Assembly (NCBI GenBank): GCA_013368445.1
Contig: JAACJO010000026.1
Span: 372,001-436,000, forward strand
Source: Leucocoprinus leucothites
Taxonomy: Eukaryota > Basidiomycota > Agaricomycetes > Agaricales > Agaricaceae
Length of the DNA: 64,000 bases
Reading direction: 5' to 3'
Shown here in pieces: positions 1-20,007 of this stretch; positions within the stretch are counted from its first letter, which is position 1, and every line of letters begins with the position of its first letter. Position numbers and translations under genes: made by a program. Below the pieces are notes generated by a model. It made no database searches and was not told where the DNA came from. It was given only the letters and a program-made list of their open reading frames with translations.

Positions 1-1650
1 ACGTGAACCGGAGTCAGTTTGGGGGTGCAATGATGAAGGATAACAAAATTACAAGCTTCCAAGCTTCGACCTTCGTGGTCAGGTGTAGGATTTCCGACGA
101 TAGCGAAGTTTTCTGCTTAGATATTGAGTCATTTATGAAACTTGTGAGGACAAATGCATTTACGAGGTTGCAGTGTCCCGGGTGCGGGAGCGCAAGCCAC
201 GTTTGAAATAAGAGCAAATCCTAAGACGAGCAAAAGTGACGAGCGCATCGGGTGAATGGATGATGGATGGAGGAGTAGTGCAGTTCGAGAGGAAGCAGAA
301 AGCCGTACCTCTGTCTTAATGTTCTTCGGGCTTTATACTTGAGCGTGTTCCAAAGTGGGATGTCTCAAGATATGATTTTCTGGAAGTCGTCCGCTGTCTG
401 TTTCAAATTGAGTGGTATTGTTGGTCACTGTTGGACTGGAAGGGGGCCAGTTCTAATCATTATGATGTATGGGACTGAGATCTGATATCGTATGTGATTT
501 CTGTCCTCTTATTTTGGCGAATAAGGTTTAATTCAAGTCTACTTCGCTTCTGCCCATGGAGCCTCTATGAGCCTTCTCCTTCCATGAAACCCATTCCAAG
601 GTTCGACTTTCTGGGTCATGCTCCTAAGAATATACGGTAAGATATCCTATGGGGAAAAAGAACCCCTTTTCCCGTTACGACCAATAGACGCGAAGGTGAT
701 ACTTTCTATATTTGTCCCGAAGTCGAAACAGCGGCACTTGCCTGAAAGCTTTCCATTATGCACCTGTGAAGCTAGGAAAAGGAGGAGCAAGGTCACAATT
801 GGACATGCGATGATTTCGCCCCCGAGTCCCGTTTTGTCAAGCCTGAAACCATGAAATACTCTCGCGACCGCTCTGAAGCTCCCAGTGTCCACCCTTCCAG
901 CACCCAGTATTTGGACTTTAAAACTCGGAGTGCACTGAATGAGATCTGTACGGTGTGTTCCTTGATATCCAGTATTTCGTGAAGGTTTATCTTTTAGTTT
1001 GTGCTCGCCATTCCGACAGACAAATAATGGAGGACATGCGAATGTGAGAGTAGTGGCTCGATACCACAATTCGAAACTCTCTGACGACTGGGTTGACCAT
1101 CTGACAACGTCTCTCATGGCTCAGGTATCGCGACGGTGAACAATGATACGTCCAATTGTCGGTGATTGTTTTCTGCTTTCTTTTCCCAGGCTCACTGGTA
1201 GACACGACGGCAGTTTTCCCGGGTAACGTAGCACCTGAGCAGCTGACTTGAGATCAGGCCAAGATCACTGCCATCACTCGATGGTTCGAAGACATCTGTC
1301 CGGCCCTATGGTCTACAGCCTTGAGCCCAGGTCTCTGTCCCCTGCCGATACGGGGGCCAAGTTGATCCACGTTGATTCCACAGCCGTCCTGCATGGCGGC
1401 TCTAAGGATCGACCCTTGAGGCCGATTAAATTTTAGGTGTCTCCCTGACATGTCAGCCGATTTGTAAGCGCTGATGGGTCACGTTTGATGGAAAACTGAA
1501 TTGTTCGGTTAAAGAATCCGCTTTGGCACCCTTGCGGCTCTATCTAAACATAGACTCCCACTCCTCCAGCTTGCACATGAAAACGGGGACCGAAGGGAAC
1601 AAGACGTCTCCTTACAACTGATGCGCTCCCAGGCTTGAACCCAATCCACC
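1..1650. other. Intergenic, no supported gene
   Basis: Short open frames occur on both strands but none has a recognisable domain, a credible splice structure or a family-like composition. The last 100 bases before 1651 are the presumed promoter and leader of the 7-TM gene; an AT-rich stretch near 1541-1552 could be its core promoter, but this is weak. Confidence 0.5.
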
Positions 1651-2876
1651 ATGAGCAACCCCTACGCACCGCCAAACGAGACTTCCTTCGAGTTGTACAA
1701 CGAGCGGACCATTATCGATGGCCTGTTTCTTGGTGCCATAGCTTATGGTGAGTTATGATTTATGTTTACACCTTTTAAAAAAAAAGCAGTTTGATCAACA
1801 ATCTGTCTGATGTTCTCAGGTGTTCACCTCACTCTTTTCATCTGGTGTTTCCACTTACTCCTCCAGAAGAAGAAATCTCGACCCGATTACCTTCTCATGC
1901 TCTATGTTTCACTCTTGTTCATCATGGGCAACATTGGCAACGGAACCAACATCAAAGTTGGAGAACTGACGTTCGTGGACAACCGGAATTTCCCAGGAGG
2001 ACCTAATGCATTCTTCGCCACGGGAGGCGGTCCTGTCGGCCTTACATGCAACGTAGTTTATATCATTAACACTTGGTTCCAAGATGGTCTGCTGGTGAGT
2101 AGCCAACTTCTTCAATGTTGTTACCGTTGCTCAAATCGAGTTCCAGCTCTATCGCTTCTGGATGTTCTTTGCTCGTGATGGTCGCTGGTATTTCGCCCTT
2201 CTCCCTGGAATCATGTTCTTGGCATCAGTTGGTCAGTCACTCACTTACTCTATGTCAAAGTAACCGGACTCATCTCTTGTAGCTCTTTCTCTAATTCTGA
2301 TCGTCATGCTCTGCGTTCCCGGAATAACCCTTTGGTCGACAATCAGCATCAACCTGGCTATCCCCTACTGGTCAATATCCATCGCACTAAACGTCATTAT
2401 TACGGCCTGTATCTCGGCCCGGCTCCTCTACATGCGTTATCAGATGCGCAATGCTCTAGTTGGGTCGGGCTCTGAGTATATATCCGTCACTTCTATGATG
2501 GTCGAGTCTGCAGCGATCTACACTGTGAACGGCTTGATATTCCTTGTTAGCTATGCCGTCAACAGCCCAATCCAGAACCTCGCGCTTCCAGTCCTGGGGC
2601 AAACTCAGGTATGCTCATCAGTGTCAATGATACTCGATCCGTTGCTTAATCATTCTCCAGTCAATTGCACCCTTACTCATCATCTTGCGCGTGCTACAAG
2701 GGCGTGCTTGGTCATCATCCTCTCTTGCCAAGTTCCAAACCGGAACTGACGTCAAGTTCAACAATAATAGCACCACTATGCTCCAATCGGGTGGGACTGG
2801 GCCGACTCTTACCATGAGAAGCAAGGGAGCGAATGAGAGTAATCCCAGCTTCAAGGCAGAGGGTGCGGCTGTTTGA
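1651..2876 (+). CDS. Seven-transmembrane integral membrane protein (agaricomycete family)
   Basis: Five exons (1651-1747, 1820-2094, 2147-2231, 2283-2608, 2661-2876) join in frame to 332 residues; all introns are GT-AG and 50-73 nt. The protein has an extracellular-looking N-terminus with an NET glycosylation sequon, about seven hydrophobic helices, an RFWMFFARD loop after helix 3, and a polar cytoplasmic tail from about residue 275. This layout is typical of the large lineage-specific 7-TM families of agaricomycetes (DUF6533/DUF6534-like), whose role is not established; a receptor or scaffold is only a guess. It stands upstream of the iminopeptidase gene on the same strand with no sign of a functional link. 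The splice model is well supported by frame; the function is unknown. Confidence 0.8.
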
Positions 2877-3340
2877 TGCAACAATAATGTACGACTGATT
2901 GTTGTGGTGTATTTCACGATCCTTTTCTTTACCTTTGCCGCGCTTATTGCGCGGTTCATGTGTTACCCTGATATCATGATACCAGCTTTGTTTGATATAG
3001 ATGATACGTGTGATGATCTTGAACGCAACCTTCCCTATCGCCGTGGTTAAATCGGTGTTATCTGTTATTCCAGGTTATTCCTCGTGGGTCTTGTATTTCT
3101 CAAGAACGGGGGAATCTGCAAGTTTAACTCCCACGATCATGCGGTCGAAGGCTCGTGCCAAGAATAACTTCCGAGGTTCCTCAAGCTCCTAGAGCCATAA
3201 GTACGATGGCTCATCATTCAAGGATGTATATTCCAACCTCTACTCAACGATCTATCGATCAAGTCAGTAGAAACCAAAACCTTTCAAAGAGTTCTTGGAA
3301 CAATTGACTTCATCTCTTTCCCTTCTTTTGCTCCAGACTC
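2877..3340. other. Intergenic, no supported gene
   Basis: Short frames only. It probably holds the 3' end of the 7-TM transcript and the leader of the iminopeptidase gene. A pyrimidine-rich stretch ending in AG just before 3341 could be a leader intron acceptor. Confidence 0.4.
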
Positions 3341-4384
3341 ATGACAGTACCACGGGATACTTCCAGCACATTCCCAACCGCAGACGGGAAGATGTCGTGG
3401 AGTGTACCGAATGCGGGAAAAGAGTGCGAGACGTGGTATCAGGTATTCGGCGATTTAAAGTTGGGGGTTCGGCCATTGGTTGTTCTTCACGGCGGTCCTG
3501 GTGTGACTTCCGACTACCTTACTGTCTTCTCCGATCTCACGCAAAAGAAATCAATTCCCGTGGTCATTTACGACCAGCTTGGGAACGGAAGATCTACGCA
3601 CCTACAGGAAAAAATGGGAGATACCACGTTTTGGACGGAGCAACTCTTTCTGAACGAACTTAAAAGCCTGTTGGAACACTTAGGGATTTATGACGATTAC
3701 GACATTCTTGGGCACTCGTGGGGTGGGATGCTGGGAGCACGGCACGCTGTTAGGCAGCCTGGTGGCCTAAAACACCTCGTACTCATGTCTGCCCCAGTTT
3801 CCAACGAGCTTTGGATCCAGGCTCAGGAGATCCTTCGGAGGAAACTCCCACAAGAAACTCAGGACGTTTTAGACCGGTGTGAAAGGGAGGGGAAGACAGA
3901 AAGCCAAGAATATCAGGCAGCTGTTCAAGCATACTATTCGCGCTTTCTTTGCACACTAAACCCGATGCCGGAGCCCTTGATTGCAAGTTTCGGCTGGCTG
4001 GAAAAGGACCCAACGGTTTATTTCACGATGTGAGGTGAATGGACTGAATTGATCTGCAAAGTTTGACCTAGCTTTAGGAATGGACCATCAGAATTCTACG
4101 TGACCGGTCCGAATAAGGACTGGACGATCGTCGATGAAGCTCATAAGATCTCGGTTCCGACGTTGCTCACAAATGGATGGAAGGATGAAGCGGCTGATAG
4201 TTGTGTTTATCCCTTTTTCCGATTGATTCCTCGAGTCCGTTGGATTCAGTTTGCGGTGCGTTGACGGGAGAGCTGTTTCTTCAAACCACCGATTTATAAG
4301 CTACAACAGGAGTCAAGTCATATGGCACACTTTGAGGAGCGAGAAAAATTTATGGACGTAGTTGGACAGTTTCTGAGCGAGTAG
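3341..4384 (+). CDS. Proline iminopeptidase-like alpha/beta hydrolase (peptidase family S33)
   Basis: Exons 3341-4029, 4078-4255 and 4310-4384 give 313 residues, the usual length for fungal S33 enzymes. The oxyanion-hole motif HGGPG lies at residues 50-54 and the nucleophile elbow GHSWGG at 124-129 (Ser126). The catalytic Asp (NGWKDEAAD region) is in exon 2 and the catalytic His (SSHMAHFEE) in exon 3, so the triad is complete only after splicing. The family removes N-terminal proline or other residues from peptides or hydrolyses small esters and amides; it has no signal peptide and is probably cytosolic. It lies about 0.6 kb upstream of the UstYa/peptide block on the same strand. A role in trimming that peptide is possible but not shown. 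Confidence 0.88.
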
Positions 4385-4968: not shown

Positions 4969-5665
4969 ATGTTCTTCCAGATCAAGACTTGGAAGTACAA
5001 GGTACTCTCATTAAGCATGACGTGACTCTCGCATGCGGTATACTCAATGTAGTCTCCAGCTCCCATATAATGTGCTCTTTGCGACATGCACAGTCGTCGC
5101 TATCCTCAACTTGTTCAGATTATCTATGCTTATGGAAGTAAAGAAGCTAACATTAGCACATGTCGATTTTCGTATGACTCTCTCTGTCCTTTGGAAGTTT
5201 TGGAAAGATACTGACTCCCCGAAAGCAAGGGTGCCAGATGGCTTTCCGCGGCAGCTTCCCTTAAACGTTCGAAATGCAGTCATGTCGTTTAATGATACAT
5301 CCCGCTATGGACTTCATGATGTGCGCGATTGGGAGTCGCTTATACCTACGGGGAATGGTTGGGTGGTACTTGAGCCTGGCCCCAGGTCTTACGCGGTGAC
5401 AATGTACCATCAACTGCACTGTCTCAACGCGATGCGCTACGACCTTACGCAGTCAAAGATTGGCAAAATACCCACTGCGTCGGAACTCGGCCATGCCCAT
5501 CATTGCTATAACTACATTCGCCAGGGTCTGCAGTGTGGTCTAGACTTGACTCTTGACTGGAGGCATGATGGATTGGGTAGTACGGCTCATGTTTGTCGGG
5601 ATTGGGTCCAGATACGAGCGTTCATGGAACAGAATTACAAACAATACCCCATGTACTATACATAA
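4969..5665 (+). CDS. UstYa-like membrane protein (DUF3328), copy 1
   Basis: The preferred model is a short first exon 4969-5001, a 58-nt intron, and exon 5060-5665, giving 212 residues; an unspliced start at 5033 is the alternative. A single N-terminal membrane helix (about residues 14-32) is followed by a lumenal domain. Both signature motifs are complete: HQLHC at about residues 128-132 (YHQLHCLN) and HAHHC at about 156-160, followed by YNYIRQ. In ascomycete dikaritin pathways UstYa/UstYb-type proteins carry out oxidative macrocyclisation of Kex2-released peptides. Downstream lie a second family member, a small membrane protein and a repeat precursor, all on the same strand, which fits that role. 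The substrate and exact reaction are inferred. Confidence 0.82.
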
Positions 5666-6051: not shown

Positions 6052-6795
6052 ATGATCAATGACCACATATACCACATCCCTACCCCCGCAGCGCCCTTGA
6101 CGATATCAATGCACCTCCTCGACGAGTCCAGTATATCTTTCCAGAGAGTTCTACCTCTACTGTTTGTATTGGCATTGAGCACTATCTTCAATGCCATCTT
6201 GACCTGGAATGACTTTCGACTATTATCTAGTTTACGGCGGGATAGTGGTGCGTCGATACTTACTCGATTTCGACGACATTTTTCAATGGTTCCTCTAGAG
6301 TTGAAGTATCTGCCAGGAAGGAACGAGGCTCCAATAAGCTTGAAGCCAGTACTTCAACTCGTCGATGCAAACGGACACTATGGCATGAGCGCGGACGTCG
6401 AATGGGCGACGCTCCTCCCATCGAACCATGCTACTGGCATTCATCTCGACCCAACTCATGAGCGGCCTTATTTCATCTCCGCCTACCACCAAATATCGTG
6501 CCTCAACACTTTACGGAAGCTTTACGTGAATCCCGGCTGGGCAGACGACACCAGGAAAAAGGATACAGCCCATCATTGTCTAAACGTCTTGCGTCAAGCT
6601 GTCCTCTGCAATGGTGACACCACCTTGGAACCCTCTCACCCAGAATCGCACTCAAATGGAAAGGCGGTCGCTGCCGCAAGTGGCATGGAAGTTCTTCACG
6701 TGTGTAAGAACTGGGAGGAACTTAGAACTATGTCTGAGGACGACAGCTTTGCAAATAGCGATATTCATCATTTATTCGCAAACTCATCACGCTGA
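6052..6795 (+). CDS. UstYa-like membrane protein (DUF3328), copy 2, altered first motif
   Basis: A single exon of 247 residues. The first ATG is at 6052; an internal ATG at 6109 (Met20) lies just before the hydrophobic helix (about residues 33-52) and could be the real start. The fold-marking regions match copy 1: YHQISCLN at about 145-152 and AHHCLNVLRQ at 173-182. The first HxxHC motif reads HQISC here, so its second His is Ser, and the second motif reads TAHHC, without the leading His. The family needs these residues for activity as far as known, so this copy may be a non-catalytic partner or have another specificity; heteromeric UstYa/UstYb pairs are known in ustiloxin biosynthesis. The C-terminal 60 residues are polar and unlike copy 1. 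Confidence 0.78.
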   Translation: MINDHIYHIPTPAAPLTISMHLLDESSISFQRVLPLLFVLALSTIFNAILTWNDFRLLSSLRRDSGASILTRFRRHFSMVPLELKYLPGRNEAPISLKPVLQLVDANGHYGMSADVEWATLLPSNHATGIHLDPTHERPYFISAYHQISCLNTLRKLYVNPGWADDTRKKDTAHHCLNVLRQAVLCNGDTTLEPSHPESHSNGKAVAAASGMEVLHVCKNWEELRTMSEDDSFANSDIHHLFANSSR

Positions 6796-7157: not shown

Positions 7158-7527
7158 ATGAGCAACCACCACGACGAAGAGACGAGAACCCTTCTATCCA
7201 ATGAAGGTGATCCCAGCCTCCCGTCAAAGGTAGACAAACTGGGGGAAACATGGGTTCAGCAGACGGTCACTTCTCGCTCAGTCTACCTCATGTGTTTCTT
7301 TTTCCTTGCATTAAATGCTGGACTCTTAGCAGCCAGTTGGCGAGCTCAGGGGGAAATTAGGAGTGTCTACTCCACTATGGGCCGTGACATTGAGAATCTT
7401 CCACGGCCCGATCCATTCGCAGGGCTGTCTGAGGCGGCGAAAAGCAATGCAGGGGGTGAGGGACCATTTTTCTTTTCGCTTCCGAAATGACAACTGACCA
7501 CTTGAGATAGTCCTTCCCGATTATTGA
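7158..7527 (+). CDS. Small single-pass membrane protein of the UstYa block
   Basis: Exon 7158-7455 and, after a 55-nt GT-AG intron, exon 7511-7527 give 104 residues; the spliced C-terminus is VLPDY. Residues 1-38 are polar and acidic (Asp/Glu-rich, likely cytosolic), a membrane helix lies at about 43-60, and the lumenal part carries LPRPDPFAGL near residues 81-90. The membrane-proximal region, including the RPDPF-GL run, resembles the start of UstYa-family lumenal domains, but the HxxHC region is absent. It may be a truncated UstYa relative or an accessory anchor. If the intron is retained, translation would end at 7490 with a phenylalanine-rich tail. Position between the UstYa genes and the precursor supports membership of the cluster; the function is unknown. 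Confidence 0.65.
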
Positions 7528-8300: not shown

Positions 8301-8951
8301 ATGAGGCCTTCAGTAATCGCACTTGTGCTCTTCTTGAGCTCTATAGCAGCCGGTATGCCGGTGATCAATAAGCGTGAGCGAAGGTGTTGTCACCCTGTTC
8401 TCCCAGAGCTTACAATAGATCGCTTTAGGTCTCCCGCTTCCGTCAAATTTCGCCCAGGTAGGGAACCCAACTCCCGATTCCGATAGCATCGCAGCGCGAC
8501 GTGAGTTTAGAGAGCGTAATTTTGCTTATTTCTGGCGGAGGGTTAACTTCGCCTTCAGAAGCCAGCAACTTCAAAATGACTGGAAACCCAACACCCGATT
8601 CAAGGCGACGTAAGTGTATTGTCCTGATTTAGAAAACTATGCTTAGTACCACAAAAGGATCTGCAATGCCTGGAAAAAACTTCAGGCAGAGTGGTAATCC
8701 CACACCTGATTCAGAGCGTCGTAAGCGCTGTTTTTGTTATTCCTTGTTCCTCATAACTTACCAGCTACTATCAAGGAGCTCCAGCTGGTGACAACTTCCG
8801 TCAAGCGGGGAATCCGACGCCTGATTCAACACGGCGTGAGTCAGTTTCATTCGATTTTTTTTTTGCCTTACATTGTACTCACCGTTGCGAAGGAGCCGCA
8901 ATGCCTGAGAACTTCAATAACTCCGGTAATCAGACTCCTGGTTCTGAGTAA
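8301..8951 (+). CDS. Secreted multi-repeat peptide precursor with Kex2-type sites, one repeat per exon
   Basis: Six exons (8301-8373, 8429-8500, 8559-8609, 8658-8720, 8776-8835, 8893-8951) total 378 nt, giving 125 residues. Exon 1 encodes a signal peptide (hydrophobic run at residues 5-17) ending in MPVINKR. Each later exon encodes one repeat with consensus NFxxxGNPTPDS; the GNPTPDS core is exact in repeats 1-4 and reads GNQTPGS in repeat 5. Repeats 3 and 4 end in ERR and TRR, repeat 2 in RRR, and exon 1 in KR, all Kex2-type sites. Every intron is phase 1 and splits the boundary codon, normally an Arg. The repeats have no Cys or Tyr; Phe is invariant. The nearby UstYa-like genes suggest a dikaritin-like RiPP precursor. 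At the exon 3 acceptor, AG at 8558 gives Gln after Arg, while AG at 8540 would restore Arg-Arg. The mature product is unknown. Confidence 0.82.
8429..8951 (+). repeat. Five exon-encoded peptide repeats
   Basis: The five repeats differ in length: 24, 17, 21, 20 and 19 codons, counting a split boundary codon with the repeat it begins. They share NF then three variable residues then GNPTPDS. The intervening introns (48-58 nt) do not obviously share sequence beyond splice signals, which suggests old exon duplications under protein-level constraint rather than very recent DNA duplication. Confidence 0.8.
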
Positions 8952-10995: not shown

Positions 10996-13477
10996 CTACC
11001 ACGAGAAAAAAGGCTGGAAAGATAGTTCAAAATCCAAGGGTAGAACACCGTTGTATGGAGAGTCTAGAGTGAGAGTTGTCTCCGGAGGAGAAGCCATGGA
11101 GTACGGATAGTACTCTAAATAAACCTGCAGACCTGTGTCCTCCAATCTCAAGAGTTCAGCTTGCATGTTGCGTTCTTCAATGACCAGCTCCCTGCTGCCC
11201 GACTGTAATTCATGAATCATGATGATGGACAATTTTCGAAGGCGAGCAACGCGATTCTGTTCACACGATAAGGTGCGAGAGTGAATAAACCCAGTGACTG
11301 ATTCATGTGAAAATCGACTTTCATAAAAGCGCAAGACTTCGAGGTTTGGACACAGACAGGGCAGTGGCGGGCTCTTGGTCTTCTTGCCCACTTCTGCGTC
11401 CTCCACCGTATCAGAGTCATGGTGTATGCCGGGAGTGAATTGGTGTAAGAAGGGATCACCGGGATAATGGGTATGGTTTGAGCCAGGTGGCCACTCTGGC
11501 CAGGGTAGAGGGGATAGAGTTCCATAAAACGATAATCTCTTCAGCCCAGGGACAAGCTTTAGAATATCGAAAAGAGTTGAGTCTGTGATAGATTCCAGGT
11601 AGAGCTCCAGCTCCTCGAGTGGATCGGTCAGTCTTCCAAAGAAGTCACCGAGAGATTGCACCATCCTCCATTCTATCCAGCTCACAAATGCCTCCTGAGA
11701 GCTCGGCAAGGCGGTCCGTCCCCATGAAAGGTGAACAAGGACAGGTGCTGATATTCGCTCAAAGATGTCACAAACCGCTGCATCATCTATCGCTTTGGCA
11801 AAAATTGTCAAAGTACGGAGTGCAGGCATCGCACACAGAATAGAGGGTTCAGGTGAATACGTGGGTTGCCATACATCTTCATTCCGAGAGCTGGTCACGT
11901 AAGTGAAGGCGATTATGCACTCGGTCAGGTTTTGGCACTGCAAGGATATTTTGGTAAATTCTTCGAGCATAAACATTCGATAAGTGATGCCCAAAGACGT
12001 CAGACATTGCCACTGCACTTCCCCTGTTACGCTATGGGCAAGATAACGAGGTAATGACAAGGAGCGGAGGCGTGGTGCCCGAAGTATACCGCTGTCGCGG
12101 GCGAGACTCGCTGTTATCGCACCAGGGTTATCTGGGGCTCTCCAACCGGAGCTCTGCGAATGATCGAAAACGCGAAGGTCCTCGAGCATGGGAACATCAG
12201 TAAATTGGGAGAGGACTTTGATCCAATCGACATCGCGGAGGACGAAGTAGGCAGATTTCCATCTGTGTGATTGACGAGCGATGATGTCCAGGTAAGGCTG
12301 GACCTCTTGGTGCATCACTCTGTCTCCAGAGTGAGATGGAACGTCATGATACATTGAGATCGAGAGTGGAAGAACACCAGAGCGGGAAAGCCAGGATGCG
12401 ATGGCATCCAGTAATGCTTTATCCCTCCGACTCGATGTGAGAGATGATAATGGAACGGCGACAATATGTAATGTTGTCCATAGCTGGGGAGTGGAATACA
12501 CAATATGTCTCCACCTTTTGCAGACCCGTCCCAAGGAGAGTGGTGGTTCGTCGATGCTCATGGTCGTGTTGCGGGAAATGGGAAGGCAGTAGTAGAAAAT
12601 CTCCCGAAGAATGTCGGGTGGGAGTCGATTGAAAGGAGACAAAAGTTCCTTGCGGTAATCAATGAAGGTACTCAGTGCCTGCTGTTGAAGCAGAAGACTG
12701 TTGTACAGCTTCTGTAGATGAGATACGTCATTTTCGAGAGCCTGTAAGTGGTCTAATCCTTTCTGCAAGGACCTCCTCGTCGCTGAGATCTCAGATTGGG
12801 TGGGTGGGTGAACAGCGCGCAGAGAGGATTTACTGACGAGAGGTAAAAATGACATGGGAGTAGAAGTGGTGACGGTTTGAACTGGGTTTGACAGGTATTG
12901 TTCCGACTTGTCTGCTCAAGCTGTGTAATGATAGACGCCCGTTGCTAGTGATATACAGTCGTTTACAAATCAAATCCGACTGCATTTCGTGTTCGGGCTA
13001 TCTATCAGTCACGTCTATTTCATCACTTAGAGATTGGATTATAAGCTTGAAGAGAAATTGGCTGACTTCATATGATTATAATCCACTAGGCAGAAGGTTT
13101 GTTTAGGGTAAAAATCGGATTATTACTCCAAACCATGTCGACCTTACTGGAGGAGAAAATGAACAGACAGATTACATGAATGTCAGTGACACCGCCTCAT
13201 CGGAATTACCTCCTAATACAACCGTTCACCTAGCATTAACAGCCTTCAAAACGAAATCATCATTACCGCAGAGTGGCATTAAGCACTGCCGCCAATCCAC
13301 ATCTAGCGTGTTAAATATTGCTCACCTTTCAGGTAAATCCCCAGGAATAACCCAATCCAATTTTTGGTCTTCATAGGGAATAGGTTCGATAATTTCATAC
13401 AAACCCCAGATGTATGATGCGTTCATGAGGAAAAGGATCCATGGCATACGATCATTAGCCTCGTTTGCCCATGTAAG
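10707..13477. repeat. Tandem segmental duplication, unit 1
   Basis: This unit, carrying an F-box gene and the 3' part of a KNH-like gene, matches the adjacent unit at about 13478-16197 along its length. The junction at about 13478 passes abruptly from KNH-like exon sequence into a copy of the 10707 region, which fixes the breakpoint. The event left unit 1's KNH copy without its 5' exon. Confidence 0.8.
10996..12855 (-). CDS. F-box protein, tandem copy A
   Basis: An intronless gene of 619 residues. Residues 1-20 hold the family start (LPLVSKSSLRA). Residues about 24-70 form a predicted coiled coil (LQALENDVSHLQ). The F-box-like domain spans about 74-130, with LPPDILREIFYYCLP followed by GRVCKRWRHIVYSTPQLW. 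The rest is an irregular leucine-rich region ending in a conserved QPFF block. F-box proteins link substrates to SCF ubiquitin ligases through Skp1, and this one would be a substrate receptor of unknown target. It is clearly the sister of the gene at 13739-15595 (shared N-terminus, length and 3' end). Confidence 0.88.
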   Translation of the reverse strand: MSFLPLVSKSSLRAVHPPTQSEISATRRSLQKGLDHLQALENDVSHLQKLYNSLLLQQQALSTFIDYRKELLSPFNRLPPDILREIFYYCLPISRNTTMSIDEPPLSLGRVCKRWRHIVYSTPQLWTTLHIVAVPLSSLTSSRRDKALLDAIASWLSRSGVLPLSISMYHDVPSHSGDRVMHQEVQPYLDIIARQSHRWKSAYFVLRDVDWIKVLSQFTDVPMLEDLRVFDHSQSSGWRAPDNPGAITASLARDSGILRAPRLRSLSLPRYLAHSVTGEVQWQCLTSLGITYRMFMLEEFTKISLQCQNLTECIIAFTYVTSSRNEDVWQPTYSPEPSILCAMPALRTLTIFAKAIDDAAVCDIFERISAPVLVHLSWGRTALPSSQEAFVSWIEWRMVQSLGDFFGRLTDPLEELELYLESITDSTLFDILKLVPGLKRLSFYGTLSPLPWPEWPPGSNHTHYPGDPFLHQFTPGIHHDSDTVEDAEVGKKTKSPPLPCLCPNLEVLRFYESRFSHESVTGFIHSRTLSCEQNRVARLRKLSIIMIHELQSGSRELVIEERNMQAELLRLEDTGLQVYLEYYPYSMASPPETTLTLDSPYNGVLPLDFELSFQPFFSW

Positions 13478-13482: not shown

Positions 13483-16197
13483 CCTTGTTGACGATGCTCG
13501 AGATTGAGCGCCAAATCCTTCGACAAGTTACCTGCTATTAACTGGAGGTTTAGGGAGGATGTCGTGGAAGATGCTCGTAAACTTGCCTCACAATGCAAGC
13601 GAAAAGGACATCGTATTGATAATAGAAACCACGATGACGTTGGTTGGAAGGCATGGAGCCGTCGAGGTTGTAGTTAGCGATGTCGCATATTGCTAATGAT
13701 TACATTTGACAATGAAAATGTTCCGTGAACGTTTACGACTACCGTGAGAAAAAAGGCTGGAAAGATAGGTCAAAGTCTAAGGGCAGAACACCGTTGTATG
13801 AAGATTCTGTAGTGAGAGCTGTCCTTAGAGGGGAAGCCATGGAGTGCGGATAGTACTCTAAATAAACCTGCAGACCTGTGTCCTCCAATCTCAAGAGTTC
13901 ATCCTGCATGTCGCGTCCTTCAATGTCCAGCTCCCTGCTGCCCGACTGTAATGCATGAATCATGACGATGGACAATTTTCGAAGGCGAGCAACGCGGTTC
14001 CGTTCACAGGACAAGGTGCGAGAGTGAATAAACTCAATGACCGATTCATGTGAAAATTGAGTTTCATAAAAGTGCAAGACTTCGAGGTTTGGGCACAGAC
14101 AGGACAGTAATGGGCCTTTGCTCTCATTATCCACCTCTGCATCCTCCGCCGTATCATAGTCATGGTTTCGTATGCAGGGAGTGAATTGGCCCAAGAGGGG
14201 ATCATCGGGATAACGGGGAGGGTTCGACCCAGTGTGTGGCCACTCTGGCGAGGGCAAAGTAGATAGAGTTCCACCGAGTGATAATCTTTTCAACCCCGGG
14301 ACAAGCTTTAGAATATCGACAAGGGTTGAGTCTGTAATAGATTCCAGGGAGAGCTCTAGTTCCTCGAGTGGACTGACCAGTCTGCCAAGGAAGTCACTGA
14401 GAGACTGAACCATCCTCCGCTCTATCCAGCTCACAAATGCCTCATCGCTGGGCCAGGCGAATCGTCCCCATGTGAGGTGAGCAAGGGCTGGTGCCGATAT
14501 TCGTTCGAAGATGTCACCAACCGCTGCGTCATTCAGCGTTTTGGCGAATATTGTTAAAGTACGGAGGGCAGGCATCGTATATGGGGTGGAGGGTGCGGGC
14601 GAGACTATGGGTTGCCACACATCACTATTCCAAGAACTGGTCACATAGGTGAAGGCGATTATGCATTCGGTTAAGTTATTGCATTGCGAGGATATTCTGG
14701 CAAATTCCTCGAGCACAAATATCCGATAAGTGATGCCCAACGAGGTCAAATTTTGCCATTGAACATCTTCTGCGCTGTGGATAAGATAACAAGGTAAATC
14801 CAAGGAGCGTAGGCGTGGGGCTCGAAGTATACCACTGTCTCGCGCCAGGGTTGTTATCGCCTCAGAGCTATCTGGGGCATTCCAACTAGAGCTCTCTCCA
14901 TGATCACAGACATGGAGGACTTCGAGTAGGGGAATGTCAGTAAATTGGGAGAGGACTTCGATCCAATCGACATCGCGGAACACGAAGTAGACCGATTTCC
15001 ATCTGTGCGCATGACGAGCAATAATGTTCAAGTAAGGCTGGACCTCATTGTTCATTAATCTGCCTCCAGAAGGAGATGGAACATCATGGTACACTGAGAT
15101 CGAGAGGGGAAGTGCGCCAGAGCGGGAAAGCCAGGAAGAGATGGCATCCAGCAGTGCTTTGTCCCTCTGGTTCGATACGAGATACGACAGTGGAACAGCG
15201 ACAATATGCAATGTTGTCCATAAACGAGGAGTGGAATACGCAATATGTCTCCATCGTTTACAGACTCGTCCCAAAGAGAGCGGTGGTTCGTCGATGCTCA
15301 TGGTAGCGTTGCGGGAAATGGGAAGGCAGTGGTAGAAAATCTCCTGAAGAATGTCGGGTGGGAGTCGATTGAATGGAGACATGAGTTCCTTGTGACAATC
15401 AATGAAGGTATTTAACGCTTTCTGTTGAAGCAGAAGGCTGTTGTACAGCTTCTGTAGATGAGATACGTCATCCTCGAGAGCCTGTAAGCGGTCTATTCCT
15501 TTCTGCAAGGACCTCCTCGTCGCTAAGATCTCAGATGGGGTGGGTGGGTGAATGGCACGCAGAGAGGATTTACTGACGAGAGGTAGAAATGACATGGGAG
15601 TAGAGGTGGTGACGGATTGAACTGGGTTTGACAGGTATTGTTCCGACTTATCTGTTCAAGCTGTGTAATGATAGACGCCCGTTGCTAGTGACGTGCGATT
15701 GTTTACAAATCAAATCTGACTCCTTTTCGTATCCGGGCTATCTATCAGTCACGTTTATTCCACCACTCAGGATTATAAACTTGAAGAGAAATTGATATGG
15801 TTATCATCCACTACACAGAAGGTTTGCTCAGAGTAAAAATCGGACTATTACTCCAAACCATGTCGACGTTGCTGGAGAAAACAAAGAGACGGATTAAACG
15901 ACTGTCAGTAATACCGCTTCATCGGAATTTCCCCTGAGACAACCACTCACCTAGCATTAACAGCCTTCAAAACGAAGTCATCACTATCGTAGAGTGGCAT
16001 TAAGCATTGCCGTCAAAACACATCTAGCATGTTAAATACTCACCTCTCAGGTAAATTCCCAGGAATAACCCAATCTAATTTTTGCTCTTCATACGGAATA
16101 GGTTCGATAATTTCGTACAAGCCCCAGATGTACGATGCGTTCATGAGGAAGAGGATCCATGGCATACGATCATTAGCCTCGTTTGTCCATGTGAGAG
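13478..16197. repeat. Tandem segmental duplication, unit 2
   Basis: Copy of 10707-13477 in the same orientation, with the F-box gene and the 3' portion of the KNH-like gene. In this unit the KNH-like gene continues into its intact 5' exon beyond the duplicated block, so unit 2 carries the ancestral right-hand boundary. Confidence 0.8.
13739..15595 (-). CDS. F-box protein, tandem copy B
   Basis: An intronless gene of 618 residues with the same plan as copy A: LPLVSKSSLRA start, coiled coil at about 24-70, F-box-like domain with LPPDILQEIFYHCLP at about 78-92, then leucine-rich repeats and a QPFF end. Differences from A are spread along the protein and include small in-frame indels, so both copies look maintained rather than one decaying. 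The divergence, higher in the middle and C-terminal substrate-facing region than in the N-terminus, is by eye only. Confidence 0.88.
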   Translation of the reverse strand: MSFLPLVSKSSLRAIHPPTPSEILATRRSLQKGIDRLQALEDDVSHLQKLYNSLLLQQKALNTFIDCHKELMSPFNRLPPDILQEIFYHCLPISRNATMSIDEPPLSLGRVCKRWRHIAYSTPRLWTTLHIVAVPLSYLVSNQRDKALLDAISSWLSRSGALPLSISVYHDVPSPSGGRLMNNEVQPYLNIIARHAHRWKSVYFVFRDVDWIEVLSQFTDIPLLEVLHVCDHGESSSWNAPDSSEAITTLARDSGILRAPRLRSLDLPCYLIHSAEDVQWQNLTSLGITYRIFVLEEFARISSQCNNLTECIIAFTYVTSSWNSDVWQPIVSPAPSTPYTMPALRTLTIFAKTLNDAAVGDIFERISAPALAHLTWGRFAWPSDEAFVSWIERRMVQSLSDFLGRLVSPLEELELSLESITDSTLVDILKLVPGLKRLSLGGTLSTLPSPEWPHTGSNPPRYPDDPLLGQFTPCIRNHDYDTAEDAEVDNESKGPLLSCLCPNLEVLHFYETQFSHESVIEFIHSRTLSCERNRVARLRKLSIVMIHALQSGSRELDIEGRDMQDELLRLEDTGLQVYLEYYPHSMASPLRTALTTESSYNGVLPLDFDLSFQPFFSR

Positions 16198-17474: not shown

Positions 17475-19394
17475 TCAATGCACAAAATATGGCTGAAAAT
17501 AGAATGCAGGACTGCCTACATCTATTCCATCATATGCGTGAGGTATTGAATGCATGTATGAGGGAGATAACGACTTTGGTTGTTTATGGTGTTCCAGATA
17601 CACTTGTACACCCGTTTCTTTCTCTAGTGTCGTAAGTTCCATTTGCATATTAGGTTCTTCAGGTTCTTCAGATTCAGGCTCTTCAACCGACGGTGGTGGT
17701 CGAAAGAATCTGGTTTTGAGATGACGAAGGCGAGAGACGTTGTTTTGGAGGTGTGAGAGTGTGCGGGAGCGGATGAATTTGAGGAGGAGGGTGTTGGAGA
17801 ATTGGGCGCGGGGGAAGTAGAGGATTTCGAGGTTGGGACAGAGGCATGGGAGGTTGGGGGCGTTAATGCTACCACCAGACTCTGTGTCATCTTCGTTGTC
17901 GTTATCGCTTAGGACGGGTAATACGCTGTCGAGTTTCGGAATAGGATCTTTGTGAGGAATAAAGTGTTCCAGTATCGAATCGTCGAGAAAAACAGGATCA
18001 GAGGAAGGTTGATAGATGGTGGTGGGACCTTGACCCCATACATGGGGTTCTGTGAACCCTTCCAGCGAGAGTCTTTTGACTTTTGGAACGAGTTGTAGGA
18101 TTTTAATGAGGGTGTCAAGTGAGATCGGATCCAGCCATAAATCAAGTTCTTCGAGTGGGTTAACCAATTTGGCGAGAAAGAGAGATAGGGACCGGATGAA
18201 TTCGGGTTCGAGGGCGCTTATGAAGGCTGCTGTACCTGTGTCTGAGGGTGTGGATCGTCCCCAAGTGAGATGAATGAGGGAGGGAGTAGAGGTGAATTCG
18301 AAGAAATCACAGACGTCACAATCATCTGCTGGTCTTCCGTGAATCATGAAATTGAGGAGAGAGGGAAAGACGATTTGAGGGGGAGAAAGAGGGAATGTGG
18401 CGTGCCCGTCTACTGTGGAGGTGATTTGGACGTGGGTAAGTTTGAGGGAGAGTTCGAGGAGGTTGGGGCATTGGGAGGCGATGTGGGAGAATTCGTCGTA
18501 GGGGAATGTCCAGTAGGAGATGGAGAGGGAGGTGAGGTGATGCCAGGGCATGGATTCGCCTAGTTTGTGAGCGATGTAGCTTGGGAGGTCGAGGGTATGA
18601 AGGCGGGGTGCGCGAAGGATGCTGCCTTCTTGAGCGAAAGCGGATATTGGATTGTGAGTGGGGTCTTCTGGTTCGACCCAGCTCACGCTTTTTAGATGGT
18701 CTTTGATGTAGAGGTGTTCGAGCAAGGGGAGATCGATTCGGTGGAACTGGGAAAGGATTCTCGTCCAGTCGATGCTGTGAAAAATGAAGTAGAGGGATTT
18801 GCATCGGTGGGAGTGGGATAGGATGATGTCGAGGTAAGGTTGGACCTGATAATTCATCGTTCTCGATCGAGTCATAAATGTGGCGCAGTGATACATTGAG
18901 ATTGAAAGGGGAAGAACGCCGGAGCGGGATAGCCAGGCGTTGATAGCGTCCAGCGTTGCCTTTGATTTCTTCTCAGCAATGGGACGAAAGTCAAGTGGAG
19001 CAGCAACGATGTGGAGGGTGGCCCATAATTGGGGAGTGGAATAGACGAGGTGTCGCCATTTTTTGCAAACGAGAGTTAGAGAGAGGGGTGGTTGGTGGAT
19101 GCTCATGATGGCGTTGTGGGCGATGGGAAGGCAGTGGTGGAATATTTCGCAGAGGAGGTCTGGTGGGAGTTGGTTGAGGGGGGAGATGAGTGATTTGTGG
19201 GTGGATATGAAGGTTGTCAGTGCTTGTTGGGAAGTCAAAGAGTCGTTGTACAGCTTCTCTAGACGGGATATATCATTTTCGAGAGCTTGTAAATGGTCGA
19301 GTCCTTCCTGTAAGGCCTTTCTCGTTGTTGCGATCTCAGAGTCTGTCGGTGGATGAAAGGCGCGCAGAGAGGATTTACTAACGAGAGGTGACAT
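17475..19394 (-). CDS. F-box protein, diverged copy C
   Basis: An intronless gene of 639 residues, same strand as copies A and B but clearly older. It keeps LVSKSSLRA, a coiled coil (LQALENDISRLEKLYN) and the F-box-like core LPPDLLCEIFHHCLP with VCKKWRHLVYSTPQLW. An acidic insert (DNDNEDDTESGG) lies at about residues 510-525. Several regions have a GT-rich, codon-biased minus strand, which generates long shadow frames on the plus strand. Role: presumed SCF substrate adaptor of unknown target. Confidence 0.87.
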   Translation of the reverse strand: MSPLVSKSSLRAFHPPTDSEIATTRKALQEGLDHLQALENDISRLEKLYNDSLTSQQALTTFISTHKSLISPLNQLPPDLLCEIFHHCLPIAHNAIMSIHQPPLSLTLVCKKWRHLVYSTPQLWATLHIVAAPLDFRPIAEKKSKATLDAINAWLSRSGVLPLSISMYHCATFMTRSRTMNYQVQPYLDIILSHSHRCKSLYFIFHSIDWTRILSQFHRIDLPLLEHLYIKDHLKSVSWVEPEDPTHNPISAFAQEGSILRAPRLHTLDLPSYIAHKLGESMPWHHLTSLSISYWTFPYDEFSHIASQCPNLLELSLKLTHVQITSTVDGHATFPLSPPQIVFPSLLNFMIHGRPADDCDVCDFFEFTSTPSLIHLTWGRSTPSDTGTAAFISALEPEFIRSLSLFLAKLVNPLEELDLWLDPISLDTLIKILQLVPKVKRLSLEGFTEPHVWGQGPTTIYQPSSDPVFLDDSILEHFIPHKDPIPKLDSVLPVLSDNDNEDDTESGGSINAPNLPCLCPNLEILYFPRAQFSNTLLLKFIRSRTLSHLQNNVSRLRHLKTRFFRPPPSVEEPESEEPEEPNMQMELTTLEKETGVQVYLEHHKQPKSLSPSYMHSIPHAYDGIDVGSPAFYFQPYFVH

Positions 19395-20007
19395 TGGAAA
19401 GAGCGAGGCCGGTAATAGGACTGACCGACCCTCATCTGGGCTGTGTTAGTGATAGATAGACGCCCATCGGTGAATGTGAGAACAAGCAGGTATAAAAATA
19501 TGTCGTGAGATTGAAAGCTTTGCCGAGGTTTTTGCTTGTTTTACCGTACGTAAGATGAAATGCCTTGCGGCGAGGCACGAGTGAGAGGGAACGTGCTCTC
19601 AGTGATCCGGAGCCGTGTTAGATCGCCAAACGGTACAGCCTTTGCAGACACGCAAACTGCAGCAGTGGTGAAGGAATGTTTGGAGCCATCAGCGCCCGGC
19701 ACAGTTGCAACATTTACGATGACAACCATAAATAGAAGCGCGCGTGACGACAGGGCGTCTGTTTGGGGCGGCAGGGACAGCGCTCTGCCATTGTGCTATG
19801 CTTCCTATCAACTCCTTGTTTTGTTCATCTGCCGCGTAACCCATCTTTCTCCCATTCCAATACCTCCAACTGAGCTGCGTACCGACTCCTACGTCGATTT
19901 GTGGATACCAAGTCCAAAGATAACCCCCATCTTGTGGCACCACCCGTGAGTGATTCTCGCATTTGGCGCTCTTGGCCAAAGATATGTTGGTGTCTCCTGC
20001 TGCAGTC
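19395..20007. other. Intergenic, divergent promoter region
   Basis: Separates F-box copy C (minus) from the coiled-coil gene (plus). Open frames on both strands here lack family features and are probably chance. Confidence 0.45.

Follow-up and report, generated by a model that had tools for sequence, protein, structure and literature searches.

Ste13 signatures occur in the KEPs of Basidiomycota and are reported to be absent from the precursors of ascomycete cyclic toxins (ustiloxin and phomopsin type) and of epichloecyclins, according to the accessible portion of Le Marquer 2019 (PMC6339444). There, the Ste13-type KEPs of basidiomycetes are proposed to act much as hormones do and to have GPCRs as their receptors, and basidiomycete mating is said to use a-type pheromones. 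Linear, minimally modified KEP peptides, some of them Ste13 trimmed, were detected in four agaricomycetes (accessible text of Vogt 2022, PMC9769878). In the available text of Umemura 2020 (PMC7329392), a DUF3328 gene lies near 103 of 1680 basidiomycete KEPs, 17 of the 76 sequences related to Ste13-type KEPs of basidiomycetes have DUF3328 neighbors, and mating-factor-type KEPs almost never adjoin DUF3328 genes. Victorin forms its ring through the side chain of a Phe, without Tyr, and peptidases are encoded in its cluster (Ford 2022, PMC9233826, available sections). UstYa-like genes of Pleurotus have already been called probably dikaritin related (PMC8893723, available sections). The pairing of KEP and DUF3328 genes in Basidiomycota is therefore already in print, and the original prediction that such a precursor would be new in an agaricomycete was too strong as a claim about the class. 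Full-text open-access searches for the core strings returned unrelated matter only, and among the papers listed by the other open-access searches none described the NF...GNPTPDS core, the exon-per-repeat layout, or the seven-helix neighbor; the supplementary tables of Umemura and Le Marquer, which lay outside this search, could list the gene.

The window, that is, the whole stretch of DNA that was analyzed, comprises 64,000 nucleotides of Leucocoprinus leucothites (C26:372001-436000 of a 47-Mb genome). From the left, the locus consisted of KEP-B (minus strand), a seven-helix gene, an S33-type hydrolase gene, UstYa1, UstYa2, an orphan ORF, KEP-A, and a peptide methionine sulfoxide reductase (PMSR) gene. 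The coordinates are collected in Table 1.

Table 1. Features of the KEP-A locus and of the unlinked family gene KEP-C (window positions unless a contig is named)
Feature	Position	Strand	Remarks
KEP-B	1..248, on to about C26:371,850	-	ATG at 248, signal-peptide-like start; crosses the left window edge
Seven-helix gene	1651..2876	+	Spliced by eye, 332 aa; seven hydrophobic stretches; paralog beside KEP-C
Alpha/beta-hydrolase (S33 type)	3308..4033	+	Abhydrolase_1; also Hydrolase_4 ("Serine aminopeptidase, S33"); main ORF
UstYa1	5033..5665	+	PF11807, 61.4 bits; motif HQLHC...HHC
UstYa2	6052..6795	+	PF11807, 66.2 bits; motif HQISC...HHC, with Ser in place of the second His
Orphan ORF	7158..7490	+	One hydrophobic stretch; part to about 7457 joined by NCBI to KEP-A exons 2 to 6
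KEP-A exon 1	8301..8373	+	ATG, hydrophobic signal-peptide-like stretch; last base is the first of the Arg codon in KR
KEP-A exon 2	8429..8500	+	Repeat 1, LPLP-SNFAQVGNPTPDS
KEP-A exon 3	8559..8609	+	Repeat 2, QA-SNFKMTGNPTPDS-RR; preceded by a single R
KEP-A exon 4	8658..8720	+	Repeat 3, SAMP-GKNFRQSGNPTPDS
KEP-A exon 5	8776..8835	+	Repeat 4, AP-AGDNFRQAGNPTPDS
KEP-A exon 6	8893..8951	+	Repeat 5, AAMP-ENFNNSGNQTPGSE, stop
PMSR	from 9276		Downstream of KEP-A
KEP-C	C3:32351-32097	-	One intron, same phase as KEP-A (by eye); one degenerate copy, PFRQGGNPTPDS

The six exons predicted for KEP-A (8301 to 8951, plus strand) spliced in one frame to 378 nt, encoding 125 amino acids and a stop. All five predicted introns had GT..AG ends and lengths of 48 to 58 bp, and all five internal boundaries were in phase 1. 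One repeat was carried by each of exons 2 to 6, and the codon split by the junction encoded the cut-site Arg in four of the five cases and Gln in the fifth. The proposed signal peptide was supported by a hydropathy stretch at the start of the protein and by a matching start, MRPS...INKR, in the Macrolepiota protein P0002. The five expected repeats of the NF...GNPTPDS type were likewise found (NFAQVGNPTPDS, NFKMTGNPTPDS, NFRQSGNPTPDS, NFRQAGNPTPDS, and NFNNSGNQTPGS, the last degenerate). Dibasic sites at residues 24 (KR), 64 (RR, within RRR), 86 (RR), and 106 (RR) preceded four of them, with repeat 2 having a single R only (AAR-Q). Tyr was absent from the whole precursor, and Phe was present in 5/5 cores.

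A chance origin of the repeats was rejected on the basis of 300 dinucleotide shuffles of 8301 to 8951, of which 299 had no repeated 12-mer (at least 8 of 12 residues identical) and one had two copies, compared with the five observed. The four GNPTPDS copies differed by 26 synonymous and 0 nonsynonymous changes, summed over six pairs, and the five 12-residue cores gave a pS of 0.77 and a pN of 0.20. This purifying pattern suggests that the repeats are under selection at the protein level. In gapped global alignments the introns were 48 to 64% identical to one another and exons 2 to 6 were 43 to 67% identical, so that a recent duplication was not evident. When the assembly was searched for further copies of the locus, the locus itself was the sole match, and no Pfam family scored over the cutoff for KEP-A, KEP-B, P0002, or P0025. 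The phase 1 exon model, the shuffles, the synonymous-only changes in the heptad, the conserved signal exon, and the exon 1 search described below all argued that the gene is real. Overall, these analyses support KEP-A as a predicted precursor of Kex2-type repeats that is encoded by short exons and has the look of a secreted protein.

The deposited annotation presents a different protein. In the NCBI model D9756_009978 (P0001), the ORF at 7158 to 7457 is joined to KEP-A exons 2 to 6 through a 971-bp intron, and the signal exon is omitted. If this model were correct, the repeats would form the outer portion of a membrane-anchored protein; the deposited protein is the evidence for it. The model requires a 971-bp intron, however, where the others are 48 to 58 bp; the signal exon that it omits matches the start of P0002; and KEP-B, KEP-C, and P0025 likewise begin with signal-peptide-like stretches. 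We consider the deposited structure hardly credible, and it was rejected on the exon/intron and P0002 comparisons; it has the appearance of a chimera from which the signal exon is missing. The description of KEP-A as previously unnoticed needs correcting, in that exons 2 to 6 were already inside that model. KEP-A provides an example of a mini-exon precursor fused to a wrong first exon by standard annotation.

Three family genes, KEP-A, KEP-B, and KEP-C, were detected in the genome, with one to five NF...GNPTPDS-type copies each. Repeat 1 of KEP-B (NFAIVGNPTPDH) starts from position 110, and repeat 2 (NFRMSGNPTKDS) lies beyond the left edge of the window; it is followed by an in-frame stop, beyond which a possible donor precedes copy three (NFQFTENPTQDS), read in a different frame. 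Two first acceptors are possible for KEP-B, one of which is favored by its close relative P0025 from Leucocoprinus birnbaumii. A protein search with KEP-A gave three matches at E values of up to 10 (107 candidates). A search with a five-row profile gave four (7993 candidates scored): P0001, which is the window's own gene; P0002 from Macrolepiota fuliginosa; P0003 from a 1,456-bp metagenome contig; and P0025. Both named relatives, M. fuliginosa and L. birnbaumii, belong to the Agaricaceae. No precursor relatives were found in scans of viral contigs.

Within the genome, an exon 1 pattern matched KEP-A, KEP-B, and KEP-C alone. As the pattern was derived from these three genes, their recovery was by construction, and the result lies in the zeros elsewhere: 0 matches in 114 kb of other UstYa-side or flanking DNA (C26 left, C36, C3, C11, and C20) and 0 in a 44-kb window control. 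Two core patterns were also used, GNPTPD and NF...GN. The first search gave six exact matches, four in KEP-A, one in KEP-C, and one at C11:252950, where no signal-peptide exon was seen by eye; with up to one mismatch there were 25 matches (one being KEP-B), compared with 19 for the reversed control pattern. The second gave 169 matches with up to one mismatch, the control giving 151. Of its 11 exact matches, 7 were in KEP-A or KEP-B, 3 fell in a different frame of genes judged NACHT-like by eye, and 1 was in DNA lacking a long frame. As far as the literature and sequence searches show, KEP-A, KEP-B, KEP-C, and their relatives form a previously undescribed family of Ste13-type KEPs in the Agaricaceae.

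Dibasic sites before the cores were few or absent in KEP-B, P0025, and KEP-C. This, together with the in-frame stop of KEP-B, indicated that not every member of the family need be a Kex2 repeat substrate. The same stop, the weak cut sites of KEP-B and KEP-C, and the degenerate fifth repeat of KEP-A could also be signs of a decayed, unexpressed gene family. The open frame and purifying pattern of KEP-A and the precursor relatives in two named species argue against decay, which we regard as very improbable.

All five KEP-A spacers carried X-A or X-P dipeptides after the cut site. Ten of 11 spacers had A or P at position 2 after a Kex2-type site (KEP-A, 5/5; P0002, 2/3; P0003, 3/3), the spacers having been picked by hand and the cut sites of P0002 and P0003 being a single R in three of six. 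A or P occupied 15 of 18 even positions, compared with 6 of 27 odd positions (Fisher P = 7e-5, for sequences that are not independent). KEP-B, KEP-C, and P0025 were left out of the count because they had no dibasic sites before their cores. Removal of dipeptides left one residue ahead of NF in 8 of the 11; the remaining ends were GK, AGD, and the untrimmable QG. Candidates for the Golgi enzymes were present in the genome: one P_proprotein match (PF01483, Kex2 type) on C5 and one gene on C2 with four DPPIV_N stretches (PF00930). A Ste13 step is thus supported by position 2 (5/5 in KEP-A and 5/6 in P0002 and P0003), by the contrast between even and odd positions, and by the Kex2-type and DPPIV_N genes.

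The original prediction had cast KEP-A as a dikaritin-type RiPP substrate. A classical dikaritin would be a macrocycle made from the core by UstYa enzymes with no Ste13 step; Kex2-type repeats beside UstYa genes fit such a product, and victorin, which is closed through Phe without Tyr (PMC9233826, available sections), offers a precedent. However, KEP-A has no Tyr and carries dipeptides of the Ste13 type, which are reported to be absent from dikaritin-type precursors in the accessible portion of PMC6339444. We consider a classical dikaritin unlikely. The Kex2-type repeat precursor and the two PF11807 genes nearby were upheld, but with these two features and a family gene, KEP-C, lacking a UstYa neighbor in its 10-kb locus, the evidence goes only part of the way toward a dikaritin label.

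Both UstYa genes scored well above the PF11807 cutoff of 25 bits. We take the UstYa motif to be HxxHC; UstYa1 carries it in full, and UstYa2, with HQISC in place of the HQLHC found in UstYa1 and other aligned relatives, lacks one His. The pair ends 1.5 and 2.6 kb ahead of the KEP-A ATG and is flanked by two precursor genes, KEP-A and KEP-B. The orphan ORF was rejected as a third UstYa gene, as it had no PF11807 match, nor any other Pfam match, and a genome search returned only itself. UstYa1 had 21 relatives (52 candidates), the nearest seven of which were 69 to 80% identical and came from metagenome or read-archive sources; the named relatives were from Ephemerocybe, Crepidotus, and Coprinellus. 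The names L. birnbaumii and M. fuliginosa occurred for none of the 21 (0/21), a weak argument against UstYa being an obligate partner in these two species. A PDB sequence search with UstYa1 gave no match. The seven helices of the 1651-to-2876 product are hydropathy peaks above a threshold set by us, and the protein matched no Pfam family over the cutoff. Elsewhere in the window, three F-box-like proteins (PF12937) of about 640 aa are encoded in a row on the minus strand (10996 to 12915, 13739 to 15655, and 17475 to 19445), the first two being close copies by eye.

Sixteen UstYa-matching stretches were found in six contig regions of the genome. Near-identical matches at C20:258-270k and C45:126-137k probably represent an allelic or duplicated stretch of the assembly, leaving five distinct UstYa loci. 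The seven-helix family had at least 30 matched stretches, taken as 28 genes, and a member lay within 6 kb of a UstYa gene at four of the five distinct loci (C26, C3, C11, and C20, but not C36), the window's own being counted. Random placement of 28 genes over 47 Mb gave a P of about 1.4e-7, which is optimistic because uniform placement was assumed and C26 is rich in family copies. Several seven-helix and S33-type relatives were noted at C26:210-305k and 346k, on the window's contig. Eight S33-type matches were found in the genome, and five of these were at C26:245-293k, far from UstYa genes.

A paralogous cluster at C3:529-538k (529471 to 538423) contained two S33-type hydrolases, two divergent UstYa genes, and one seven-helix gene. 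No repeat precursor was seen in this cluster, nor did any of the four distinct UstYa loci outside the window, C3 included, show one comparable to KEP-A. A self-repeat scan gave one hit at C36, none at C3, four at C11, seven at C20, and three at the near-copy C45, compared with two and none in two window controls. By eye, no signal peptide with KR/RR-bounded repeats was present in the C36, C11, and C20 regions, and the C11 self-repeat was rich in Ser, Thr, and Ala. The link to the UstYa genes had originally been drawn from position. The flanking by KEP-A and KEP-B and the recurrence of the neighbors at C3 make it better than bare position, although the C3 cluster has no visible precursor.

At the KEP-C locus, a seven-helix paralog, 60 to 86% identical by tblastn piece, lay about 1.4 kb away (P of about 0.004 for some member of the family lying at most 3 kb away), and no UstYa or S33-type match was found in the 10-kb locus. 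Four further seven-helix stretches of 65 to 76% identity were located at C26:346k and C22:524-529k, regions with no exact match to GNPTPD or NF...GN. The arrangement at KEP-C suggests another possibility, that KEP-A gives rise to linear, unmodified Ste13-trimmed signal peptides and that the UstYa enzymes serve another product, their genes being nearby because UstYa and seven-helix genes tend to cluster in this genome as a whole; the seven-helix protein may then be a receptor. The Ste13 signature of KEP-A, the linear peptides detected in four agaricomycetes (PMC9769878, accessible text), and the hormone-like roles and GPCR receptors proposed for Ste13-type KEPs (PMC6339444, accessible portion) are in keeping with this possibility. 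The flanking of the UstYa pair by both KEP-A and KEP-B, the DUF3328 neighbors of 17/76 Ste13-type relatives (PMC7329392, available text), and the seven-helix genes at UstYa loci that showed no sign of the NF...GNPTPDS peptide weigh against it. We consider linear signals a real but doubtful alternative.

The reading that we favor, tentatively and at somewhat less than an even chance, is that KEP-A is a Kex2/Kex1-cut, Ste13-trimmed precursor of peptides of about 13 residues, XNFxxxGNPTPDS, likely oxidized by UstYa enzymes, and that it forms one unit with the seven-helix and S33-type genes. The precursor would be a secreted protein cleaved by Kex2 and Kex1, and a Ste13-type dipeptidyl aminopeptidase would likely trim the pieces to that length. 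UstYa1 and UstYa2 next door would then likely oxidize the peptides. By analogy with victorin, Phe would be the most plausible site, since KEP-A has no Tyr and the victorin ring is closed through Phe. Within the unit, the seven-helix protein may serve as a membrane partner (receptor or transporter) and the S33-type hydrolase as a trimming peptidase. Judged from gene content, UstYa modification of KEP-A peptides is likely; the PF11807 pair between KEP-A and KEP-B, the recurrence of UstYa, S33-type, and seven-helix genes at C3:529-538k, and the seven-helix genes near UstYa at 4/5 distinct loci support this step. Against the favored reading stand KEP-C without UstYa in 10 kb and the four other UstYa loci without a comparable visible precursor, the lack of Tyr in KEP-A and of one motif His in UstYa2, the weak dibasic sites of KEP-B, P0025, and KEP-C with the in-frame stop of KEP-B, the location of 5/8 S33-type matches far from UstYa, and the near absence of DUF3328 genes beside mating-factor-type KEPs (PMC7329392, available text).

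A bolder proposal, which we think improbable, is that the locus is a mushroom peptide-signal cassette in which exon-per-repeat precursors, UstYa oxidases of an alpha-factor-like peptide, and the peptide's own seven-helix receptor are encoded together. If so, a UstYa-modified RiPP would act as an intercellular signal, and the receptor-peptide pair would also have been copied to a second locus, that of KEP-C.

The KEP-A locus was compared with three described systems. Ste13-type basidiomycete KEPs, as portrayed in the available literature text, share with KEP-A the signal peptide, repeats of the 9- to 24-aa class after KR or RR, and X-A or X-P dipeptides, with DUF3328 neighbors for some KEP relatives; the cores named there (-AADW, C-terminal Trp) are unlike that of KEP-A, which further differs in its repeat-per-exon layout and in the splitting of the cut-site Arg by 4/5 introns. 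KEP-A has the predicted signal peptide and near-identical KR/RR-bounded repeats of a KEP, the latter not being true of KEP-B or KEP-C, and it has the post-cut dipeptides of a Ste13-type KEP in a genome with candidate Kex2-type and dipeptidyl aminopeptidase genes. With the dikaritins (ustiloxin, phomopsin, asperipin, and victorin) the locus shares Kex2 repeats, adjoining UstYa (DUF3328) genes, and a peptidase-like gene. It differs in having a seven-helix gene, dipeptides suggestive of Ste13 processing, and no Tyr in the precursor; Phe, the ring-closing residue of victorin, is present in all five cores. Ascomycete alpha-pheromone precursors have the same Kex2 and Ste13 layout but differ in the UstYa neighbors and in the core, and mating in basidiomycetes relies on a-type pheromones (PMC6339444, accessible portion). 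The KEP-A locus joins the marks of linear signals and of UstYa-made RiPPs in one compact set, and, with KEP-C as a natural contrast that has no UstYa neighbor, it makes the choice between linear signal and RiPP directly testable for basidiomycete KEPs.
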